Shown here in pieces: positions 5,292-52,119 of a stretch of 52,313 nucleotides of DNA. The translations under genes and the position numbers were made by a program. The DNA lies in IMG/VR virus record IMGVR_UViG_3300021425_003342, positions 1 through 52,313 of that record; one strand, 5' to 3'. The notes beneath the pieces were generated by a model. That model did not search any database and was not told the DNA's origin. It worked only from the letters and a program-made list of their open reading frames with translations. Within the stretch, counting starts at the first letter, position 1; each line of letters starts with the position of its first letter. This DNA is from a virus.

Positions 5292-5375
5292 TGGTACCCG
5301 CGGCCGGACTCGAACCGGCACGCCTTGCGGCCACAGATTTTAAGTCTGTTATGTCTACCATTCCATCACGCGGGC
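5292..5375 (-). tRNA. tRNA-Leu(UAA)
   Basis: Class II tRNA. The acceptor GCCCGCG pairs with CGCGGGT, the anticodon stem-loop is ACAGA-CUUAAAA-UCUGU with anticodon UAA, a long variable arm is present, and the T-arm is GCCGG-TTCGAGT-CCGGC. Discriminator A and CCA are encoded. It reads UUA, a very frequent codon in this AT-rich genome. Confidence 0.93.
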
Positions 5376-5600
5376 TTATCTTTTTATAACATAAGCTCCT
5401 TCTGAGCTGTTTATAGCTAAAATTAACTCTTGCCACATTTCTGGAGTTATATTAAGTATATCATCATAATCACCGTCTTCATCCATTTGAGTAATATATA
5501 CTCCATCTTCATAACTATTTATTATTAGGTCCGGTAAACTGCCTGAGTCATCTAATATAGTTATAATTACTTCATCGTGATCAAATTCTACTGTATACAT
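5376..5600 (-). CDS. Hypothetical acidic protein inside the tRNA cluster, 74 aa
   Basis: Not recognised. Strongly acidic (MYTVEFDHDEVIITILDD, then DEDGDYDD) with probable beta strands; resembles no family I can name. An AAAGGA ribosome site precedes the ATG. The stop codon abuts the first base of tRNA-Leu, so the gene must be co-transcribed with the tRNAs and its mRNA end would be trimmed by tRNA processing. Confidence 0.65.
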   Translation of the reverse strand: MYTVEFDHDEVIITILDDSGSLPDLIINSYEDGVYITQMDEDGDYDDILNITPEMWQELILAINSSEGAYVIKR

Positions 5601-5617
5601 ACTAACATTCCTTTGGG

Positions 5618-5689
5618 CATAGGTGCAAAGAATCGAACTCTGTCTTTCGGATTTGGAATCCGACGTGCAACCATTAACACTTCACCCAT
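5618..5689 (-). tRNA. tRNA-Trp(CCA)
   Basis: Acceptor AUGGGUG pairs with CACCUAU (one G-U), the anticodon stem-loop TCGGA-TTCCAAA-TCCGA gives anticodon CCA, and the T-arm is CAGAG-TTCGATT-CTTTG. Discriminator G; CCA is not encoded (GCCC follows). The acceptor is weaker than in the neighbouring tRNAs. Confidence 0.85.
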
Positions 5690-5692
5690 ATA

Positions 5693-5768
5693 TGGTGGGC
5701 CCGGTAGGATTTGAACCTACGATCTACCCGTTATGAGCGGGGAGCTTTAACCACTAAGCTACAGGCCC
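5693..5768 (-). tRNA. tRNA with CAU anticodon (Met, or Ile2 reading AUA)
   Basis: 76 nt with encoded CCA. The acceptor is GGGCCTG/CGGGCCC, the anticodon loop CUCAUAA gives CAU, and the T-arm is GTAGG-TTCAAAT-CCTAC. A CAU anticodon can be elongator Met, initiator, or lysidine-modified Ile2. The first acceptor pair is G-C and there is no initiator-type mismatch. AUA codons are abundant here, which favours Ile2, but identity cannot be settled by eye. Confidence 0.88.
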
Positions 5769-5773
5769 TAATT

Positions 5774-5848
5774 TGGCTCCGGCGGTAGGGATCGAACCTA
5801 CGACCAATTGATTAACAGTCAACTGCTCTACCGCTGAGCTACGCCGGA
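5774..5848 (-). tRNA. tRNA-Asn(GUU)
   Basis: Acceptor TCCGGCG/CGCCGGA, anticodon stem-loop GTTGA-CTGTTAA-TCAAT with anticodon GUU, T-arm GTAGG-TTCGATC-CCTAC. Discriminator G with encoded CCA. Confidence 0.93.
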
Positions 5849-5860
5849 ATGTTATAACTA

Positions 5861-6019
5861 CTATCTTGTTAGAAGATCTAAAATAATACTTAACTCATAA
5901 ATTGCTTTATCTAGGACTAAATGAGCAGTGTTATCTTCATTTTTTTTCTTTTCTTCGTGTAGTAGATCTATTCTTACTTTAATATAATCTATGGGGTCAG
6001 GTTTACTACCTCGTCTCAT
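5861..6019 (-). CDS. Hypothetical protein, 52 aa
   Basis: Not recognised. Starts MRRGSKPDPIDYIKVRIDLL and continues with a charged helix (HEEKKKNEDNTAH) and a C-terminal hydrophobic helix. The ATG at 6017-6019 is preceded by AAAGGAC at suitable spacing; a longer reading from 6097 would run into the GC-rich structured RNA and lacks a ribosome site. Sits between tRNA-Asn and the structured segment. Confidence 0.55.
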   Translation of the reverse strand: MRRGSKPDPIDYIKVRIDLLHEEKKKNEDNTAHLVLDKAIYELSIILDLLTR

Positions 6020-6054
6020 AGTATGTCCTTTATTATGCAGAAATAAATATATAA

Positions 6055-6215
6055 TCGGTGGGGAGGCTTTCTGCAGTGCCTCCCCACGTATCTGCATTTG
6101 ACGTATGCAGCAACCGACTGGGTTTTTTTACGGTACCAGTGCTTATACCGACCTATATGTCCGACGCGCCTCGAACCACATATAGGGTTTATTGGGTACG
6201 TTTAGCGAAATCGCT
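6055..6215. ncRNA. GC-rich multi-hairpin structured RNA candidate
   Basis: About 160 nt, clearly richer in GC than its surroundings. TCGGT (6055-6059) / ACCGA (6113-6117) closes two hairpins: GGGGAGGC (6060-6067) / GCCTCCCC (6078-6085) and CTGCAT (6092-6097) / ATGCAG (6105-6110), a three-way junction. It is followed by TTTTTTT on the plus strand (6123-6129). Further stems are CGGTA/TACCG (6131-6150), CCTATATGT (6152-6160) / ACATATAGG (6178-6186) and TAGCG/CGCTA (6203-6215). It lies between tRNA-Asn and tRNA-Arg. No RNA family is recognised and the strand is undecided. Confidence 0.5.
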
Positions 6216-6237
6216 AGGCTTTCCCCCTTGCCTGTCT

Positions 6238-6314
6238 TGGTGATCTCTTCAGGATTCGAACCTGAGACCTAGTGCTTAGAAGGCACTTGCTCTATCCAGC
6301 TGAGCTAAGAGACC
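6238..6314 (-). tRNA. tRNA-Arg(UCU)
   Basis: Acceptor GGTCTCT/AGAGATC (one G-U), anticodon stem-loop AGTGC-CTTCTAA-GCACT with anticodon UCU, T-arm TCAGG-TTCGAAT-CCTGA. Discriminator A with encoded CCA. It reads AGA, the dominant Arg codon in the neighbouring genes. Confidence 0.93.
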
Positions 6315-27453: not shown

Positions 27454-27573
27454 ATGAATCCTAAAAATGGAGTAATACCTCATGCACTATCTAAAGCATG
27501 GAAAAAGAAACTAAAACAACTGTCTAATAAAAAAATAAGACAAAAAATAAATAAGAAATTAAGAGGTCACTAA
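27454..27573 (+). CDS. Small Lys-rich protein, 39 aa
   Basis: Reads MNPKNGVIPHALSKAWKKKL then KQLSNKKIRQKINKKLRGH. TAGGAG ribosome site before the ATG, which lies 10 nt after the previous stop. Highly basic; may bind RNA. Its 3' end overlaps the terminator at 27561-27607. Confidence 0.5.
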   Translation: MNPKNGVIPHALSKAWKKKLKQLSNKKIRQKINKKLRGH

Positions 27574-27607
27574 CTGCGATATATCTATCGTTTTAAACCT
27601 CTTTTTT
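27561..27607 (+). terminator. Branched rho-independent terminator before the tmRNA
   Basis: Outer stem AAGAGGT (27561-27567) / ACCTCTT (27597-27603) continuing into a six-T run (27602-27607); inner hairpin CGATA/TATCG (27577-27590). It should end the small-protein transcript just before the tmRNA acceptor piece, or form part of the precursor. Confidence 0.55.
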
Positions 27608-27951
27608 GTAATCGTTGATACAATTCAACATATGGACAGGACTGCGGGGCAGTACCGCACAGCTCCACCATAAACACTTGGAGAATGAAATGAGTGATAT
27701 CGTGACATATTTGTCATTGAAATTTGTACAATATGCACTGATAATCATATTATTTGGAAGTTTATTAGAAGTGTTTTTGATGGGGCTGAAATAGGATCGA
27801 CTGACGTATAGAGATGAGAGTAGATTACCGTGTTGGCCTACGTTATTCAGCCAAAAACTACAAATGCAAACGATAACTTTGCACCATCTAATTACGCACT
27901 AGCTGCATGATTAAGGGGGCTGGTCACTTGCCTAGCAACAGAAAAAGTGAC
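27606..27951 (+). ncRNA. ssrA: Circularly permuted two-piece tmRNA (alphaproteobacterial type)
   Basis: Rescues stalled ribosomes by acting as tRNA-Ala and then mRNA. The acceptor piece comes first: pseudoknot TTGTA/TACAA with GTTGA/TCAAC (27606-27629), T-arm TGCGG-GGCAGTA-CCGCA (27643-27659), CAGCTCC-A-CCA ending at 27670. After a ~111-nt intervening segment the coding piece starts GGGGCTG (27782-27788), pairing with CAGCTCC. Then pseudoknot GTAG/CTAC with TTGGC/GCCAA (27820-27854), the tag frame 27866-27910 encoding ANDNFAPSNYALAA plus UGA, and a closing hairpin GTCACTT/AAGTGAC (27923-27951). CGTAT (27805-27809) can pair with ATATG (27630-27634) as helix P2. Confidence 0.92.
27690..27794 (+). 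CDS. Possible hydrophobic peptide in the tmRNA intervening segment, 34 aa
   Basis: An open frame MSDIVTYLSLKFVQYALIII continuing with a hydrophobic stretch and ending EVFLMGLK, with GGAG 6 nt before the ATG. It spans the intervening segment and ends inside the tmRNA coding piece. It predicts one transmembrane helix. It may be coincidental, since the segment is normally cut out of the RNA. Confidence 0.25.
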   Translation: MSDIVTYLSLKFVQYALIIILFGSLLEVFLMGLK

Positions 27952-27973
27952 ACTCATTATTTTGAATAGCACT

Positions 27974-28570
27974 ATGAAAGTATACTCTGCCTCCGAAGCT
28001 ATTATAGAATTTTCTATAGACTCTTCTAATACTATTGATCCGTCTGTGGTATTTTTAGTAAAAGAGGATAAATATGGAATATCACTAGGTAAAAACAATA
28101 TAATACTCTCATCATGTGTTATTAACTGCGCAACTGGTTACAGAGAGAATACTGTTATAGGAAGTGGCAATTATATAGGCCCAAGTACTACTATTAATAG
28201 TGATACTTTAATAGGCAATAATAATACTATAACAGGTTGTTGTTACTTAGGTTTTCATAGTGTTATTCAAAATAATGTTTATATAGAATATAATGCTCAT
28301 ATACAAAATTATTCTACAGTAGGCAGTCATTCTTTTATAGGTACTTTTTCTCCTATAATAAAAGATGTAAAACCTTTCTCTAAAGTGTTCGGTAATCCTT
28401 CTAAAACAAGAGGAGTATATCGTTCTTCTAGTTATAAAAGTAACTTTAATAACACACAAAAAGATGAAATAGAAAAGTTTGTAAGAGAAGGCACAGAACC
28501 TTTAGATCCTTATATTATAAGTATTATTGATGAATATAGAAATTTCTCAAGAAAAAAAGTAACAAAATGA
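27974..28570 (+). CDS. Hexapeptide-repeat acyl/acetyltransferase (LpxA-like left-handed beta-helix)
   Basis: 198 residues with repeated [LIV]GxxxxI-type hexapeptides (NTVIGSGNYIGPSTTINSDT, LIGNNNTITGCCYLGFHSVI, NVYIEYNAHIQNYSTVG) and the family ending SFIGTFSPIIKDVKPFSKVFG. Such trimeric enzymes transfer acyl or acetyl groups to sugars. A His in the coil (GFHSVI) is a candidate catalytic residue. The ATG at 27974 avoids the tmRNA; an earlier GTG lies within its closing hairpin. Opens the glycan cluster and overlaps the next gene by 4 nt. Confidence 0.78.
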   Translation: MKVYSASEAIIEFSIDSSNTIDPSVVFLVKEDKYGISLGKNNIILSSCVINCATGYRENTVIGSGNYIGPSTTINSDTLIGNNNTITGCCYLGFHSVIQNNVYIEYNAHIQNYSTVGSHSFIGTFSPIIKDVKPFSKVFGNPSKTRGVYRSSSYKSNFNNTQKDEIEKFVREGTEPLDPYIISIIDEYRNFSRKKVTK

Positions 28571-29340
28571 TAATAATATATAGAGCTTCAGAAGCTAATA
28601 AGTCTCCAGGAAGTATATCAGATGGCTCGCAAGATAAAGCTAGATGGAATGGAAAAAAGAAAGACGATATTTTTAGAAAGTGTTGGCTTTCTTTACAGCA
28701 AGACTTAGAAGGCTGGGATGATAAGATTATAGTATTAGCAGATACGGTTACTGAAGAAACTAAATCTTGGATGCGAGAAACCTGTTCTATACCTACTAAA
28801 TTAGAAATAAAAGATATACCTAACAGAACTGAAGTACCTCCGTTTGGAGAACATCCTTATCCTCAGTATCATCCTGTTACAATAAATACTTGTATACCTT
28901 TAATGGAAAATTTAATAGAAATAGCAGAATCAAATACTGAAGAATTAATATATTTATGCGAAGACGACTACCTTCATACTAAAACTGCCATAAAAACTAT
29001 GAAAAATGTTTTTAAAGCAGGGTATGAAGGTTTTTATTTGCCGTATGATTATCCAGATAGGTATTTTGATAAAGATAGAACCGTAGAAGTATTAGTAGGG
29101 CCTGATTGTCACTTAAAGACAGTTAGTAGTGCTACTTTAACTTTAGCTGCAAAAGGAAAAACATTCTTACCGTTTAAGTTTTCTATACTACAAGCAGGTC
29201 TGTTCTCAGACGACTCTTGGACATGGAAAGCCTTTAGGCAAAACGTAGCTGTTTGTCCTTTACCTGGTACTGCTACTCACCTACAAGATAATTGTGTAAC
29301 CCCCTTAGTAGATTGGAATGACGTATGGAATCAGTGGTAA
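28567..29340 (+). CDS. Glycosyltransferase-like protein (GT-A-like)
   Basis: 257 residues. Contains IYLCEDDYLHT, an acidic DxD-like metal motif after a hydrophobic strand, and a later aromatic acceptor region (EGFYLPYDYPDRYFD). A phage family with this motif is often annotated as glycosyltransferase; the fold is inferred. Its start overlaps the acyltransferase stop (ATGA) and its end overlaps the epimerase gene by 16 nt. Confidence 0.6.
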   Translation: MIIIYRASEANKSPGSISDGSQDKARWNGKKKDDIFRKCWLSLQQDLEGWDDKIIVLADTVTEETKSWMRETCSIPTKLEIKDIPNRTEVPPFGEHPYPQYHPVTINTCIPLMENLIEIAESNTEELIYLCEDDYLHTKTAIKTMKNVFKAGYEGFYLPYDYPDRYFDKDRTVEVLVGPDCHLKTVSSATLTLAAKGKTFLPFKFSILQAGLFSDDSWTWKAFRQNVAVCPLPGTATHLQDNCVTPLVDWNDVWNQW

Positions 29341-30356
29341 TTACAGGATCTGCAGGCTTAATAGGTAGTCATCTATGTTATAAGTACTTAGATTTAGGAT
29401 ATAGAGTAATAGGCATAGACTCTTTAATAGGTGGTTATATAACTAATATGCCTGATAATAAAAACTTTTTTTATTATGAACAAGACATACTAGATACTAA
29501 AGAGCTGGCTGCTGTAATGAGTATTTACTCTCCCGTGCTTGTAATACACTGTGCTGCTTTAGCACACGAAGGCTTAAGTGTTTTTTCTCCTAAAAAAATA
29601 GTTGAGAATATATATGCAGGAACAGCTTCTGTGTGTAGTGCTTCTGTAAGTAATAATGTACCTATGTTTATAAACACTACTTCTATGGCAAGATATGGAG
29701 AAGGAAATCCTCCTTTTCAAGAAGATCATACTCCTAATCCTGTAGATCCTTATGGGTTAGCTAAGTTACATGCAGAGCAGCATTTAAACTTAATGAGTGA
29801 TATTCATGGAATAAAAGTATTTCATATGGTTCCTCATAATGTATGCGGTCCTCATCAGTGCTATAGCGATCCTTTTAGGAACGTTATGAGTATTTTTGCA
29901 AATCTAATATCTAAAGACAAACCTGTGTATATTTATGGTGATGGTACCCAAAAAAGATCTTTTTCTCATGTAAAAGATTGTGTAGAAGCTTTTGTAACAG
30001 TTTATAATAAAAGAGATAAAATAGAAAGCAAAGAAGTATTTAATATAGGTCCTAGTCATGGAACTGAGACTTCTATAGCAGCACTAGCAAATAAAGTAGC
30101 TAAATATTTTAACAAAACTGCAGAAATAAACTTTGTCCCTGAAAGACCTAGAGAAGTAAAAAATGCTTGGGTATCTACTGATAAGGCAGAGGATATACTA
30201 AACTATAAAGCCGACACAGATATTGAAGAAACTATAAGGGATACTGTAGTATGGATGAGAGACCAAACTACTAGAGATTTTGATTATCATATAGATTTAG
30301 AAATAATAAATGATAAAACACCTAAAACATGGACAGATAGGCTATTTAATAAATGA
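29325..30356 (+). CDS. NAD-dependent sugar epimerase/dehydratase (extended SDR, GalE-like)
   Basis: 343-residue extended short-chain dehydrogenase. TGSAGLIGSHLC is the NAD loop, HCAALAHEGLS the family's second strand, TTSMARYGEG and YGLAKLHAEQHL hold the Ser/Tyr-x3-Lys catalytic set, and YGDGTQKRSFSHVKDCVEAF is the substrate region. These act on nucleotide-diphosphate sugars. It may epimerise UDP-sugars or an ADP-heptose for the glycosyltransferases around it. Confidence 0.85.
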   Translation: MESVVITGSAGLIGSHLCYKYLDLGYRVIGIDSLIGGYITNMPDNKNFFYYEQDILDTKELAAVMSIYSPVLVIHCAALAHEGLSVFSPKKIVENIYAGTASVCSASVSNNVPMFINTTSMARYGEGNPPFQEDHTPNPVDPYGLAKLHAEQHLNLMSDIHGIKVFHMVPHNVCGPHQCYSDPFRNVMSIFANLISKDKPVYIYGDGTQKRSFSHVKDCVEAFVTVYNKRDKIESKEVFNIGPSHGTETSIAALANKVAKYFNKTAEINFVPERPREVKNAWVSTDKAEDILNYKADTDIEETIRDTVVWMRDQTTRDFDYHIDLEIINDKTPKTWTDRLFNK

Positions 30357-31342
30357 CTCATGTACTATTTGCAAACACACAAGCATTCGGAGACGTAATT
30401 CTAGGTATAAATGCTGCTAGACGATATAAAGAAAATAACCCTGATCATTTAGTAAGTTATTGTTTAAGAAGCAATTTTATGCTTACTACTCATGAGCAGC
30501 CTAGCGGGATATCAGAAGTTTTAGAGGTTATTAGTAAACAGCCTTGGTTAGATTCTATAGGACTAATAGAGTTTGATAATAAAGGTCAAGTAAAAAACGT
30601 AAACTTAAATAAAAGTGAAGAGCAGTTTAAAAAAGTAGATAAAATGTTTTTGCACTGGCGTTGGTTCTCAGATTTAGGAATTTCTAAGAGTACTAATTTA
30701 CCTATAAAAGAATATATTACTGAAGATCAGTTTCTAGACGGTAACACTATACTAAATGTAGAATCTATTAAACCTGATGATAATATACTAAGAATAGGTA
30801 TGTCAGGGCCTCTAGACTGGAATAGAAAATTACAGTCAGAAACAATGAGATTAGACATAATACAAGGCATAAGAGATATACTAACTACTAAAAATATAGA
30901 ACACGAGTTATCTTTTTTAGGTATAGAGTGTGGAAATTTTAATTTATATCAGTCTTTACAAATATTAAAACGTCAAGACTTATTTATATCACCGTTAGGC
31001 TCTTTAGTACATGCTTCTGCCGCTATGAATGTCAATACTATTAGCATACCTAGTGTTTTTCCTACAGAGTATGATAGTCCTGAGTTTTATTCTGATGGAT
31101 ATCACAGAACTATAAAGCCGTCTACTGATAATCATTGTGGAGATTTTAAGTGTATAGTTCCTAAACTAAGTAAAGATGCAGATACTAATATAGAACCGGG
31201 CAATCCTACAGCTAATTTTACTTTTTGGCCAAGACATTGTCCTCATACTAGTACAAGTTTTGCTTGTACTAAAACTCATAATGCTGAAAGCGTATTAGAA
31301 GAATTTAAAAATTGGTTAGATATTTATAATGACAACTCCTAA
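30353..31342 (+). CDS. Glycosyltransferase family 9 / heptosyltransferase-like
   Basis: 329 residues of the GT-B type found in LPS heptosyltransferases. The N-terminal FANTQAFGDVILGINAARR (with the conserved GD-hydrophobic motif) and the C-terminal LFISPLGSLVHASAAMNVNT (the donor-binding DSGxxHxAA-like segment, here GSLVHAS) are the main evidence. Encoding both an HldE pair and a GT9-like protein suggests heptose-containing glycan assembly. Overlaps both neighbours by 4-14 nt. Confidence 0.7.
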   Translation: MTHVLFANTQAFGDVILGINAARRYKENNPDHLVSYCLRSNFMLTTHEQPSGISEVLEVISKQPWLDSIGLIEFDNKGQVKNVNLNKSEEQFKKVDKMFLHWRWFSDLGISKSTNLPIKEYITEDQFLDGNTILNVESIKPDDNILRIGMSGPLDWNRKLQSETMRLDIIQGIRDILTTKNIEHELSFLGIECGNFNLYQSLQILKRQDLFISPLGSLVHASAAMNVNTISIPSVFPTEYDSPEFYSDGYHRTIKPSTDNHCGDFKCIVPKLSKDADTNIEPGNPTANFTFWPRHCPHTSTSFACTKTHNAESVLEEFKNWLDIYNDNS

Positions 31343-32099
31343 TCCTATTATTATAGTTCCTTATTTATTTGAACAAGAGATACAACAATTAAAAGCTGCC
31401 CTTGGATGGAAGCTTGAATATGAGTTTTGGCAAGATATAGGTCAGATAGGCAGTGATATGGCTTATCAGTATCTATGGAATAAACATAAGCATAGAGATG
31501 TAATTATATTACACTCAGATATGTTGCCTCTTCAAGAGGATACAGAAAATAAATGGTATACAGAATTAATAAATACTGTAGTTAAATATCCAGAAGCTGA
31601 TATATTTGGAATGAAACTTTTATACCCTCAAAAAACTGAGGAAGATAAATATATAATTCAGCACGCTGGTGGGAGATTTAGTAAAAATGGTGAAGCAGTA
31701 CATTTCGGAGGAGGACTTAACCTCTATGATGGAAAAGCAAATCAAGAATTGGAAATCGATGAGGGCCAATACGACAAAGTCAGAGAAGTTGCCTGGGTTA
31801 CTATGGGCGGAGTTTACCTCAAAGCTTCTGTTAGGAATTCCGTTGGTAATTTTGATCCTGAGTTCTATTGGACTTACTATCGTGATGTGGATTGGTGTCT
31901 TTCTGCCCGCCGCGCTGGTCATAAAATTTATCAAACGGGTATACCGTTACTTCATTTTGAAGGAAAAGACAACAAAAGATTACTAGCTCAGAATCCAAAT
32001 CTGCAAGAAAAATGGTCTATAAATAGATCTATATTCATGGATAAATGGATAGGAAAAAAAGAGTTTGAAACAGTAGACAGAGTAGTTGAAAATGCGTAA
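31329..32099 (+). CDS. GT2-like glycosyltransferase with a compositional patch
   Basis: 256 residues, GT-A fold. DVIILHSDMLPLQ holds the DxD-like metal motif, and EVAWVTMGGVYLKAS with YYRDVDWCLSARRAGHKI is the typical EDxDxxxRxxxxG catalytic end. The middle (about 31660-31945) uses markedly more C/G-ending codons than the flanks, so it may be a recombined patch. Sits within the glycosyltransferase run. Confidence 0.75.
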   Translation: MTTPNPIIIVPYLFEQEIQQLKAALGWKLEYEFWQDIGQIGSDMAYQYLWNKHKHRDVIILHSDMLPLQEDTENKWYTELINTVVKYPEADIFGMKLLYPQKTEEDKYIIQHAGGRFSKNGEAVHFGGGLNLYDGKANQELEIDEGQYDKVREVAWVTMGGVYLKASVRNSVGNFDPEFYWTYYRDVDWCLSARRAGHKIYQTGIPLLHFEGKDNKRLLAQNPNLQEKWSINRSIFMDKWIGKKEFETVDRVVENA

Positions 32100-32913
32100 A
32101 AAAAGTGTAATCAGTCTAATATCTTATGATGCTAGTTATTTAGTAAGTTCTATAAAAAGTTATTATAATTATGTAGATGAAATAGTATTAGGATTAGATA
32201 AAGATAGAGTGTCTTGGAGCCGTAATAAATTTTCTTTTGACGAAGATAAGTTGTGGAAAGAGCTAAGTGCTATTGATGGTGATAATAAAATAGAAGTAGT
32301 AGAAGGAAACTTTCATAGAAGTGCTGTACCTATTGAAAATGATAACTATGAAAGAAACTTTTTAAAAGAGCAATGCTCTAATGACTGGATTTTTTCTTTT
32401 GATGCTGATGAAATACTAATAAATGCAGATGATTTTTTTAACAAGTTTTGCCCTATAGTAGAAAACTATGATATAGACTTAATGTTTTATTGGATTTTAC
32501 CTTATAAAAGAGTCGGAGAAGATGAAATATTAGTAATATCTAAAGAAGATAGAAAAAGTATTCCTAATAATGAAGTTCAAGGTTTTACTACTTTAAAACA
32601 CAACACATTTAATTACTGTAGATGGACTAATAATCAAAAGAGAATTCAATCTCCCTTGGCAATACTACATTGGAGCTTCTGTAGACCAGAAGACGAACTA
32701 GATTTAAAAATTAATAACTTTGGACATAGTATTGAAAGTAAACAAGACCCGTTTTATGATATACAAGCTAAAGTAGATATTAACAATTACACACAATTAA
32801 AAAACTTTAAAACTAGTAATATGGGACCTCAATGGGAATCTCTATTAAAAATTAAAGAAAAAGACTTATTAGACTATTGTAAAGAACAAGCGGTGATTAT
32901 GTATGCAAAATAA
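32092..32913 (+). CDS. Glycosyltransferase-like protein (GT2-like)
   Basis: 273 residues. SVISLISYDASYLVSSIKSY opens like small GT-A enzymes, and WIFSFDADEILI is a strong DxD motif (FDADE). The later KHNTFNYCRWTN and HWSFCRPEDEL may contribute to acceptor binding. The ATG at 32092 overlaps the preceding stop; a TTG two codons upstream is the alternative. Operonic with the GT4 gene, overlapping by 11 nt. Confidence 0.7.
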   Translation: MRKKSVISLISYDASYLVSSIKSYYNYVDEIVLGLDKDRVSWSRNKFSFDEDKLWKELSAIDGDNKIEVVEGNFHRSAVPIENDNYERNFLKEQCSNDWIFSFDADEILINADDFFNKFCPIVENYDIDLMFYWILPYKRVGEDEILVISKEDRKSIPNNEVQGFTTLKHNTFNYCRWTNNQKRIQSPLAILHWSFCRPEDELDLKINNFGHSIESKQDPFYDIQAKVDINNYTQLKNFKTSNMGPQWESLLKIKEKDLLDYCKEQAVIMYAK

Positions 32914-34036
32914 TATTAATTTAGAAATTATAGGTAAATTTTATGATAACCACTCTTTGTCTATTGTAAATAGATACTTAGCTATTGAATTGTCTAAGTA
33001 TAACAATGTAGTTATTTCTCCTATAGATAGTTTTACCTCAGAGGCTAAGCTTAGTCAAGAAACTTTACAAAGCTTAGAAAATTTACTTCCTAAAGAAGAA
33101 ACTGCTGTAGTTCCTGATATACAAATAAGACATAGTTATCCCCCTATATGGAGGTGGCCTCATTCTAATGACACAAAAGTAGTATATATACAGCCTTGGG
33201 AGTTTACAAAAGTACCTTTTGAGTGGCAATACAAATTTGAAACTTTTGCTGACGCTCTTATCACTTTTACTCGCTGGACAGGCGCAGTGTACCAAGAAGG
33301 TGGTATTAATCCAGAAAGACTTTTTTGTATTCCTATAGGATATGATCCAAATATATTTTATGTAGACAGAGATACACCTAAAAGAGATAAGTACACTTTT
33401 CTATTTGTAGGATGTGATCAATATAGAAAAGGTTTTGATATACTACTACAGGCGTGGGCCAATACCTTTAAAAAAGAAGATAACGTAGAGCTTATAGTAA
33501 AAGATACCCCTCAAGTTTACGGAAAAACAACACTACAAGAACAATTAATTAAACTACAGTACACTAATAACTTAGCTAAAATAACTTATATAGATGATCC
33601 ATACTCAGAGAAAGATATGGCCGATTTATATAGAAGTGTAGATGTATTAGTTCATCCTTATAGAGGAGAAGGTTTTGGGATGCCTGTTCAAGAAGCAATA
33701 GCTTGTGGGACTATTCCTTTAGTTACTGGAGGAGGCTGTACTGATGAGTTTGTTACAGACTATAAAATAAAGTCTTCTCAAAAAATCGTAGACATTAATA
33801 ACATTTTTGCAGGCAAACCAGGAGACAGCTTTAACTTAATGGGTTCTCATACTTGGTTAGTAGAACCAGAAGTTCAAGACTTGATATCTAAAATGAAAAT
33901 GTTATACGATACCAAGAAACGTGCTATTCCTAAAAGTAATAAGATAAAGAACTGGGAAGAAGCAGGAATTATGTATAATCATGCTCTCAAAAAGATACAT
34001 GATTATCCAAGGATAAAAAGAGTTCATGGAAATTGA
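32903..34036 (+). CDS. Glycosyltransferase family 4
   Basis: 377 residues with the GT-B fold. The C-terminal donor domain shows FLFVGCDQYRKGFDILLQAW, DVLVHPYRGEGFGMPVQEAI (the E-x7-E motif of GT4) and ACGTIPLVTGGGC. The N-terminus is shorter than in cellular enzymes but intact. Retaining glycosyltransferase using a nucleotide sugar; acceptor unknown. Ends the glycan cluster and overlaps the PC4-like gene by 11 nt. Confidence 0.85.
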   Translation: MQNNINLEIIGKFYDNHSLSIVNRYLAIELSKYNNVVISPIDSFTSEAKLSQETLQSLENLLPKEETAVVPDIQIRHSYPPIWRWPHSNDTKVVYIQPWEFTKVPFEWQYKFETFADALITFTRWTGAVYQEGGINPERLFCIPIGYDPNIFYVDRDTPKRDKYTFLFVGCDQYRKGFDILLQAWANTFKKEDNVELIVKDTPQVYGKTTLQEQLIKLQYTNNLAKITYIDDPYSEKDMADLYRSVDVLVHPYRGEGFGMPVQEAIACGTIPLVTGGGCTDEFVTDYKIKSSQKIVDINNIFAGKPGDSFNLMGSHTWLVEPEVQDLISKMKMLYDTKKRAIPKSNKIKNWEEAGIMYNHALKKIHDYPRIKRVHGN

Positions 34037-52043: not shown

Positions 52044-52119
52044 GCTCCTATAGCTCAGTTGGTAGAGCAACTGATTTGTAATCAGTAGGTCCGCGGTTCG
52101 AGTCCGTGTGGGAGCACCA
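52044..52119 (+). tRNA. tRNA-Thr(UGU)
   Basis: Begins 2 nt after nrdB. Acceptor GCTCCTA/TGGGAGC (one mismatch-like T-G position), D-arm, anticodon stem-loop ACTGA-TTTGTAA-TCAGT with UGU, T-arm with GGTTCGAGT, encoded CCA. It reads ACA codons. Confidence 0.93.

Follow-up and report, generated by a model that had tools for sequence, protein, structure and literature searches.

The permuted tmRNA gene and its neighbourhood

The window, i.e. the whole stretch of DNA analysed here, is a virus contig of 52,313 bases that carries genes for a DNA polymerase, helicases, SbcC, ribonucleotide reductase and an NAD-dependent ligase. The best named matches of the polymerase are those of T5-like phages (39% identity), and the window phage is regarded as a T5-like marine phage. 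IMG/VR holds contigs of up to 82 kb whose polymerase is 95-99% identical to that of the window. Six tRNA genes (Leu, Trp, Met, Asn, Arg and Thr) are located at 5292-6314 and 52044-52119. A permuted tmRNA gene is found on the plus strand between a small ORF of 39 residues (27454..27573, +) and a gene that is beta-helix acyltransferase-like by its repeats (27974..28570, +) and shows weak matches to PHROGs 5353 and 16087, which have no assigned function. Both genes occupy the same locus in relatives, being 92-97% and 95-96% identical, respectively, in the close relatives L342-L344. A run of sugar-modifying genes (acyltransferase-like, epimerase, glycosyltransferase) extends directly 3' of the tmRNA gene, from 27974 to 34036. 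Directly 5' of the gene, positions 27561-27608 form the element AAGAGGT...AACCTCTTTTTT, whose pairing is kept in L342 via a G-U change. It resembles either a terminator with a long loop that belongs to the upstream gene or a stretch by which the tmRNA is extended at its 5' end.

An Rfam search at gathering thresholds matches the locus with two families, tmRNA_permuted (RF04321, 27608-27910, +, 117.9 bits against a cut-off of 47, E=1.9e-22) and alpha_tmRNA (RF01849, 27555-27954, +, 103.6 bits against a cut-off of 50, E=2.7e-27), and the whole model is covered in both cases. The preliminary description of this DNA had proposed a phage-encoded, permuted, two-piece tmRNA of the alpha type and had named the alpha_tmRNA search as its check. 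With these matches, and with the record being a virus contig, the proposal is borne out. The acceptor piece comes first (27608..27670, +) and comprises the 5' strand of P2, the T-arm with its stem at 27643-27647/27655-27659, the acceptor 3' strand CAGCTCC (27660-27666) and an encoded ACCA that ends at 27670. The coding piece follows (27782..27954, +) with the acceptor 5' strand GGGGCTG (27782-27788), the D-region, pseudoknot PK1, the tag frame and a 3'-terminal hairpin (27923-27929/27945-27951). The order of the halves, their 7-bp end pairing, the T-arm and the CCA are thus as originally described. The third pair of the acceptor stem is a G-U wobble. A G-U at this position is the alanine identity pair. 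The tag frame (27866..27910, +), also recognised before, reads ANDNFAPSNYALAA-TGA with a resume codon and a terminal ALAA-type degron, and it is identical in L342-L344. As for the pseudoknots that had been claimed, PK1 can be drawn with the stems CGT/ACG and TTGGC/GCCAA, the second of which is compensated in the relative L177 (TTGAC/GTCAA).

ARAGORN misses the gene in the window while it finds the same gene in L342-L344. A promoter scan returned fewer sites than in shuffled sequences. SmpB genes are absent from the window and from four further phage records, and the phage tmRNA would therefore depend on the host factor.

The spacer, its clamp and a nested reading frame

The two pieces are separated by a spacer of 111 nt (27671..27781, +), whose limits are set by the end of the CCA on one side and G1 of the acceptor 5' strand on the other. 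By analogy with known permuted tmRNAs, this intervening sequence would be cleaved off and be absent from the mature two-piece tmRNA. Host spacers have a median length of 12 nt with a 90th percentile of 57 (109 host loci), and viral spacers have a median of 80 nt and a maximum of 352 (193 viral loci among the matches listed). The viral loci are the matches listed from pattern scans, one of which used the spacer motif shared by the window and the Methylophilales phage Melnitz, so that viral frequencies given here describe the sample and not the population. A permuted tmRNA with a spacer of 410 nt is present in the Sinorhizobium jumbo phage Phosso (L354:1233-1642), where it is unannotated in the record and missed by ARAGORN.

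The spacer begins and ends with two complementary arms, AAACACTT at 27672..27679 and AAGTGTTT at 27769..27776 (both +), whose helix extends the acceptor stem. The pairing is supported by covariation. Among the matches listed, 92 distinct arm pairs show 88.6% canonical pairs in register, as against 36-66% when one arm is slid by one or two positions, and several arm positions show three or more pair types. Examples are TAAGGACACT/AGTGTCTTTATGAT, TAGATACACTAG/CTAGTGTATCTTTGAT and TGGTAACACTG/CAGTGTTACTTTGAT. Such a helix would explain the tolerance of very different inserts.

An ORF of 34 codons is nested in the spacer, which the preliminary description had overlooked together with the exchange of spacers among relatives. 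The spacer starts with TAAACACTTGGAGAATGAA-ATG..., in which a Shine-Dalgarno-like GGAG (27680..27683, +) lies just past the 5' arm and 6 nt 5' of the ATG, the same position as in the L025-type and Melnitz spacers. The ORF (27690..27794, +) encodes MSDIVTYLSLKFVQYALIIILFGSLLEVFLMGLK and ends with a TAG at 27792-27794, within the mature coding piece. Its last codons are formed by the 3' arm and the acceptor strand, and protein-coding and stable-RNA functions would therefore share bases. One hydrophobic stretch of 19 residues (mean Kyte-Doolittle 2.3) is predicted as a membrane helix, and no family match is found in Pfam or PHROGs. We would guess, with little weight given to it, that the product is a small protein that crosses the membrane once and might act in lysis or exclusion.

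The same ORF is found in L025, L073, L145 and L193, where 29 of the 34 residues agree with the window. Over the stretch compared between the window and L025 there are 12 changes, of which 7 are synonymous against an expectation of 2.7 (P=0.009; pS 0.42, pN 0.09). This test consists of a single pair of distinct sequences, and the amino-acid changes between the window and the L025-type ORF are mild. A degenerate-codon pattern for the MSDIV start revealed no free-standing homologue, its two extra matches (L332 and L333) being due to chance. In isolate phages no match was found to the window tmRNA or to the spacer proteins of the MDFHW, MSDIV, DUF6356 and MAKYRR types.

The interior of the spacer folds better than dinucleotide shuffles (z -4.2) and also better than codon-resampled versions (P 0.012), so that an RNA role beside the coding one is possible. 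This fold is not conserved in L025, in which 3-5 pairs are broken with 0-1 compensatory changes. Neither ARAGORN nor Rfam identifies a complete tRNA gene in the structured spacers examined. Spacers of about 96-117 nt in L358, L359, L174, L256 and L164 end with a T-arm-like hairpin adjoining the 3' arm, an arrangement like that of a tRNA fused into the clamp helix.

Exchange of spacers and their diverse contents

The contigs of L342, L343 and L344 have flanks 92-95% identical to those of the window and the same tag, and they carry different spacers of 30, about 94 and 74 nt, respectively. The arms are paired in all three. The window ORF is present in none of these spacers and was not found elsewhere in the three contigs, and neither the phage lineage nor the tmRNA therefore requires it. 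The 74-nt spacer of L344 is nearly identical to that of contig L150. The more distant relative L177, whose flanking proteins are 76-94% identical, has an 80-nt spacer also seen in further contigs, and the spacer of L345 (polymerase 56% identical) is 217 nt long and has another ORF. Conversely, the spacer of the window recurs in L025 and L073. The genes of these contigs are different ones (DnaB-like helicase, thymidylate synthase, endolysin and ferredoxin), they have no match to the window polymerase, and their tmRNA coding piece is shorter and lacks PK1. A shortened coding piece is also seen in L020, where, as in L025 (2861-3210), the resume codon follows G1 after only about 50 nt, which leaves no room for PK1. 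The differences between the window and L342/L343 extend to the T-stem and P2 on either side of the spacer, so the exchanged unit looks like the spacer together with the tRNA-like domain. We infer from these swapped stretches that the exchange occurred as expected from homologous recombination through the conserved halves.

A structured spacer of 74-75 nt without an ORF recurs in L344, L150, L048, L078, L133 and other phage contigs, and it might be set free as a small RNA when the tmRNA is processed.

Spacer ORFs are seen in twelve other families. When the viral spacers of at least 100 nt among the matches listed are grouped into 29 families, 13 of them hold a reading frame of 30 or more codons together with a Shine-Dalgarno match, compared with 2.0 expected from shuffled interiors and 0 on the reverse strand; by the same criteria 16 of these 29 have none. 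All seven spacer-ORF families tested, with one pair each, show an excess of synonymous changes (P 2e-6 to 0.02). Besides the window family, these are L044/L283 (9 of 10 changes synonymous, P=2e-6), L026/L051 (8 of 8, P=2e-6), L011/L028 (14 of 29, P=8e-5), L005/L012 (5 of 6, P=9e-4), the Melnitz-type pair L121/L322 (8 of 16, P=0.01) and L080/L137 (8 of 18, P=0.02). The L026/L051 product belongs to Pfam DUF6356 (E=5e-12), a family found in Caulobacter too. Another protein, MDFHWISW..., fills the spacer in about a dozen contigs among the matches listed, and in L334, whose own spacer is different, it is encoded by a free-standing gene directly 5' of that for the tmRNA. A later pattern of acceptor, Shine-Dalgarno and ATG yielded one further spacer ORF family (L351) and two chance matches. 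The literature searched, with subscription journals mostly outside it, makes no mention of protein genes in the intervening sequences of permuted tmRNAs.

Interpretation and comparison with known systems

Based on these comparisons, the locus probably represents an alpha-type permuted tmRNA gene in a T5-like marine phage, with the spacer serving as an exchangeable cargo slot and a protein gene of 34 codons as the cargo here. By analogy with known permuted tmRNAs, a single precursor would be transcribed. Its acceptor stem CAGCTCC/GGGGCTG would be prolonged by the helix of the spacer ends, and the tRNA-like domain would therefore fold irrespective of the content of the spacer. Host RNase P and 3'-end processing would then excise the spacer, and the resulting two-piece tmRNA would be charged with alanine and act in partnership with host SmpB. 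Prior to the cut, ribosomes could load at the GGAG-6nt-ATG of the spacer and synthesize the predicted small membrane peptide. Since the stop codon belongs to the mature coding piece, only the unprocessed precursor would yield a peptide with normal termination; processing would remove this stop codon, and translation of the excised spacer would therefore be unproductive. Recombination within the conserved tRNA-like domain would move spacers from phage to phage, so that some phages would have small proteins in the slot and others structured RNA. A broader reading, for which we see about even chances, is that of a modular expression slot. A covarying clamp would hold unrelated cargo (many small-protein families, some captured from hosts, and structured RNAs) that is recombined via the conserved tmRNA halves, and a cut before the stop would couple some of the peptides to tmRNA maturation.

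Could the spacer be nothing but a linker of structured RNA, or a small RNA that is released, with the ORF as an untranslated by-product of an AT-rich hairpin? The arms are paired in nearly all spacers among the matches listed, the interior of the window spacer outfolds both kinds of control, hairpin spacers without an ORF occur in close relatives, and the structured 74-75 nt spacer recurs in many phages. However, such a linker would not account for the excess of ORFs with a Shine-Dalgarno match among the long-spacer families, for the synonymous excess in seven families or for the DUF6356 spacer ORF and the free-standing homologue in L334, and the interior fold is not conserved between the window and L025. 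We consider this explanation unlikely. In another reading, the excised spacer is a built-in non-stop messenger and a substrate of its own tmRNA, either for autoregulation or for constitutive tagging of the peptide. An RNase P cut before G27782 would remove the stop codon and make the excised spacer a natural tmRNA substrate, and the ORFs of the window, of L025, of the MDFHW family and of others indeed have no stop but the TAG that occupies bases 11-13 of the mature coding piece. But this TAG is simply where that frame first meets a stop in the conserved 5' end of the tmRNA, and the arrangement is not general, since the ORFs of L009, L011, L080 and L026 stop 1 or 12 nt before the cut. As a general purpose, non-stop autoregulation is rejected on account of these stops that precede the cut, and as an account of this locus it is very unlikely.

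The origin of the gene was also reconsidered. It had been implied that a two-piece tmRNA in a phage is unusual in itself, and a capture from an alphaproteobacterial host, with possible phage control of ribosome rescue or tagging, had been suggested. The former is not supported. Two-piece forms account for 53 of 133 unique phage tmRNA structures, 50 of them from marine or aquatic phages (PMC9004378); a tmRNA database of 2025 lists 79 phage tmRNAs, all forms together (PMC11915505). In our own search, a single 20-base pattern from the coding piece matches at least 119 viral contigs, and named phages of Ruegeria, Rhodobacter, Phaeobacter and Sinorhizobium carry a permuted tmRNA, some without annotation. 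Since the form is published and widespread in viral contigs, a phage two-piece tmRNA as such is not new. The latter suggestion, taken as a recent capture, would fit the match to the alpha-type model and the frequent occurrence of the two-piece form among Alphaproteobacteria (PMC9004378). A rough comparison over the whole alignment speaks against it: the nearest phage tmRNAs reach 69-82% identity to the mature tmRNA of the window, but about 100 sampled alphaproteobacterial tmRNAs do not exceed 44%, with two exceptions in genome assemblies (L256, 64%, and L283, 46%), both of which have phage-type spacers. As the mature tmRNA is much nearer to phage than to sampled host tmRNAs, a recent host capture is unlikely. 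The same phage genes flank the tmRNA gene in relatives, and the lack of SmpB from the five phage records, with the host factor still needed, also counts against the suggestion; taken as a whole, we regard it as quite unlikely. That the gene is a degenerate relic without function, as its being missed by ARAGORN in the window might indicate, is hardly credible in view of the intact tag, CCA and third-pair G-U, the compensatory change in PK1 of L177 and a tag that stays identical in relatives despite 5-8% divergence of the flanks.

The two-piece tmRNA of phages is known, and it is the nested gene that alters the picture of the permuted tmRNA, with an intervening sequence regarded as waste that appears to house protein genes in many phages. 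Being inside an RNA gene, these are missed by gene callers, and the spacer ORFs would constitute a fresh set of small phage proteins. One locus with four different spacers offers a natural series on spacer content versus maturation, and the nested ORF would be a case in which protein coding and a stable RNA share the same bases.

A comparison with known systems places the locus close to that of phage Melnitz (MZ577097; PMC9004378), also a marine phage with a permuted alpha-type tmRNA. The Melnitz spacer (142 nt) begins with TAAACACTTGGAGAA, as does that of the window, and its ORF (MFKWLSKTRLVVITRDYF... / MFKWLSKTRLVVITRDYFRERNRK...) shows protein-level constraint like the window ORF while differing from it in sequence. 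Melnitz was published as carrying a tmRNA and a glutamine riboswitch (PMC9004378), and its deposited record has no annotated spacer gene; the window phage, in contrast, is T5-like and has no glutamine riboswitch. In other phages a GOLLD RNA is located a few hundred bases upstream of a permuted tmRNA, namely in Phaeobacter phage MD18 (L358:440-907) and Ruegeria phage V10 (L355:545-978). The permuted ssrA of Alphaproteobacteria (Caulobacter type, RF01849) shares with the window the order of the pieces, the acceptor stem, the T-arm, PK1 and the tag frame, but its short spacers (median 12 nt over the 109 loci) are nearly always too short for such a gene. A protein gene within the removed part of a tmRNA gene is known from group I introns (PMC11915505). 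There, a self-splicing intron sits in the T-loop of a one-piece gene and its cargo is a homing endonuclease, whereas the window has a permuted-gene spacer with predicted tRNA-type processing, varied small cargo and no intron; Rfam finds no intron family in the window, and the ORF lacks a Pfam or PHROG match. Finally, a permuted tmRNA of one nominally archaeal genome has a tRNA-Ala in its intervening sequence (PMC11915505). It is a nested gene like that of the window, but its cargo is RNA; it is described there as a unique case, and a protein gene is not mentioned.
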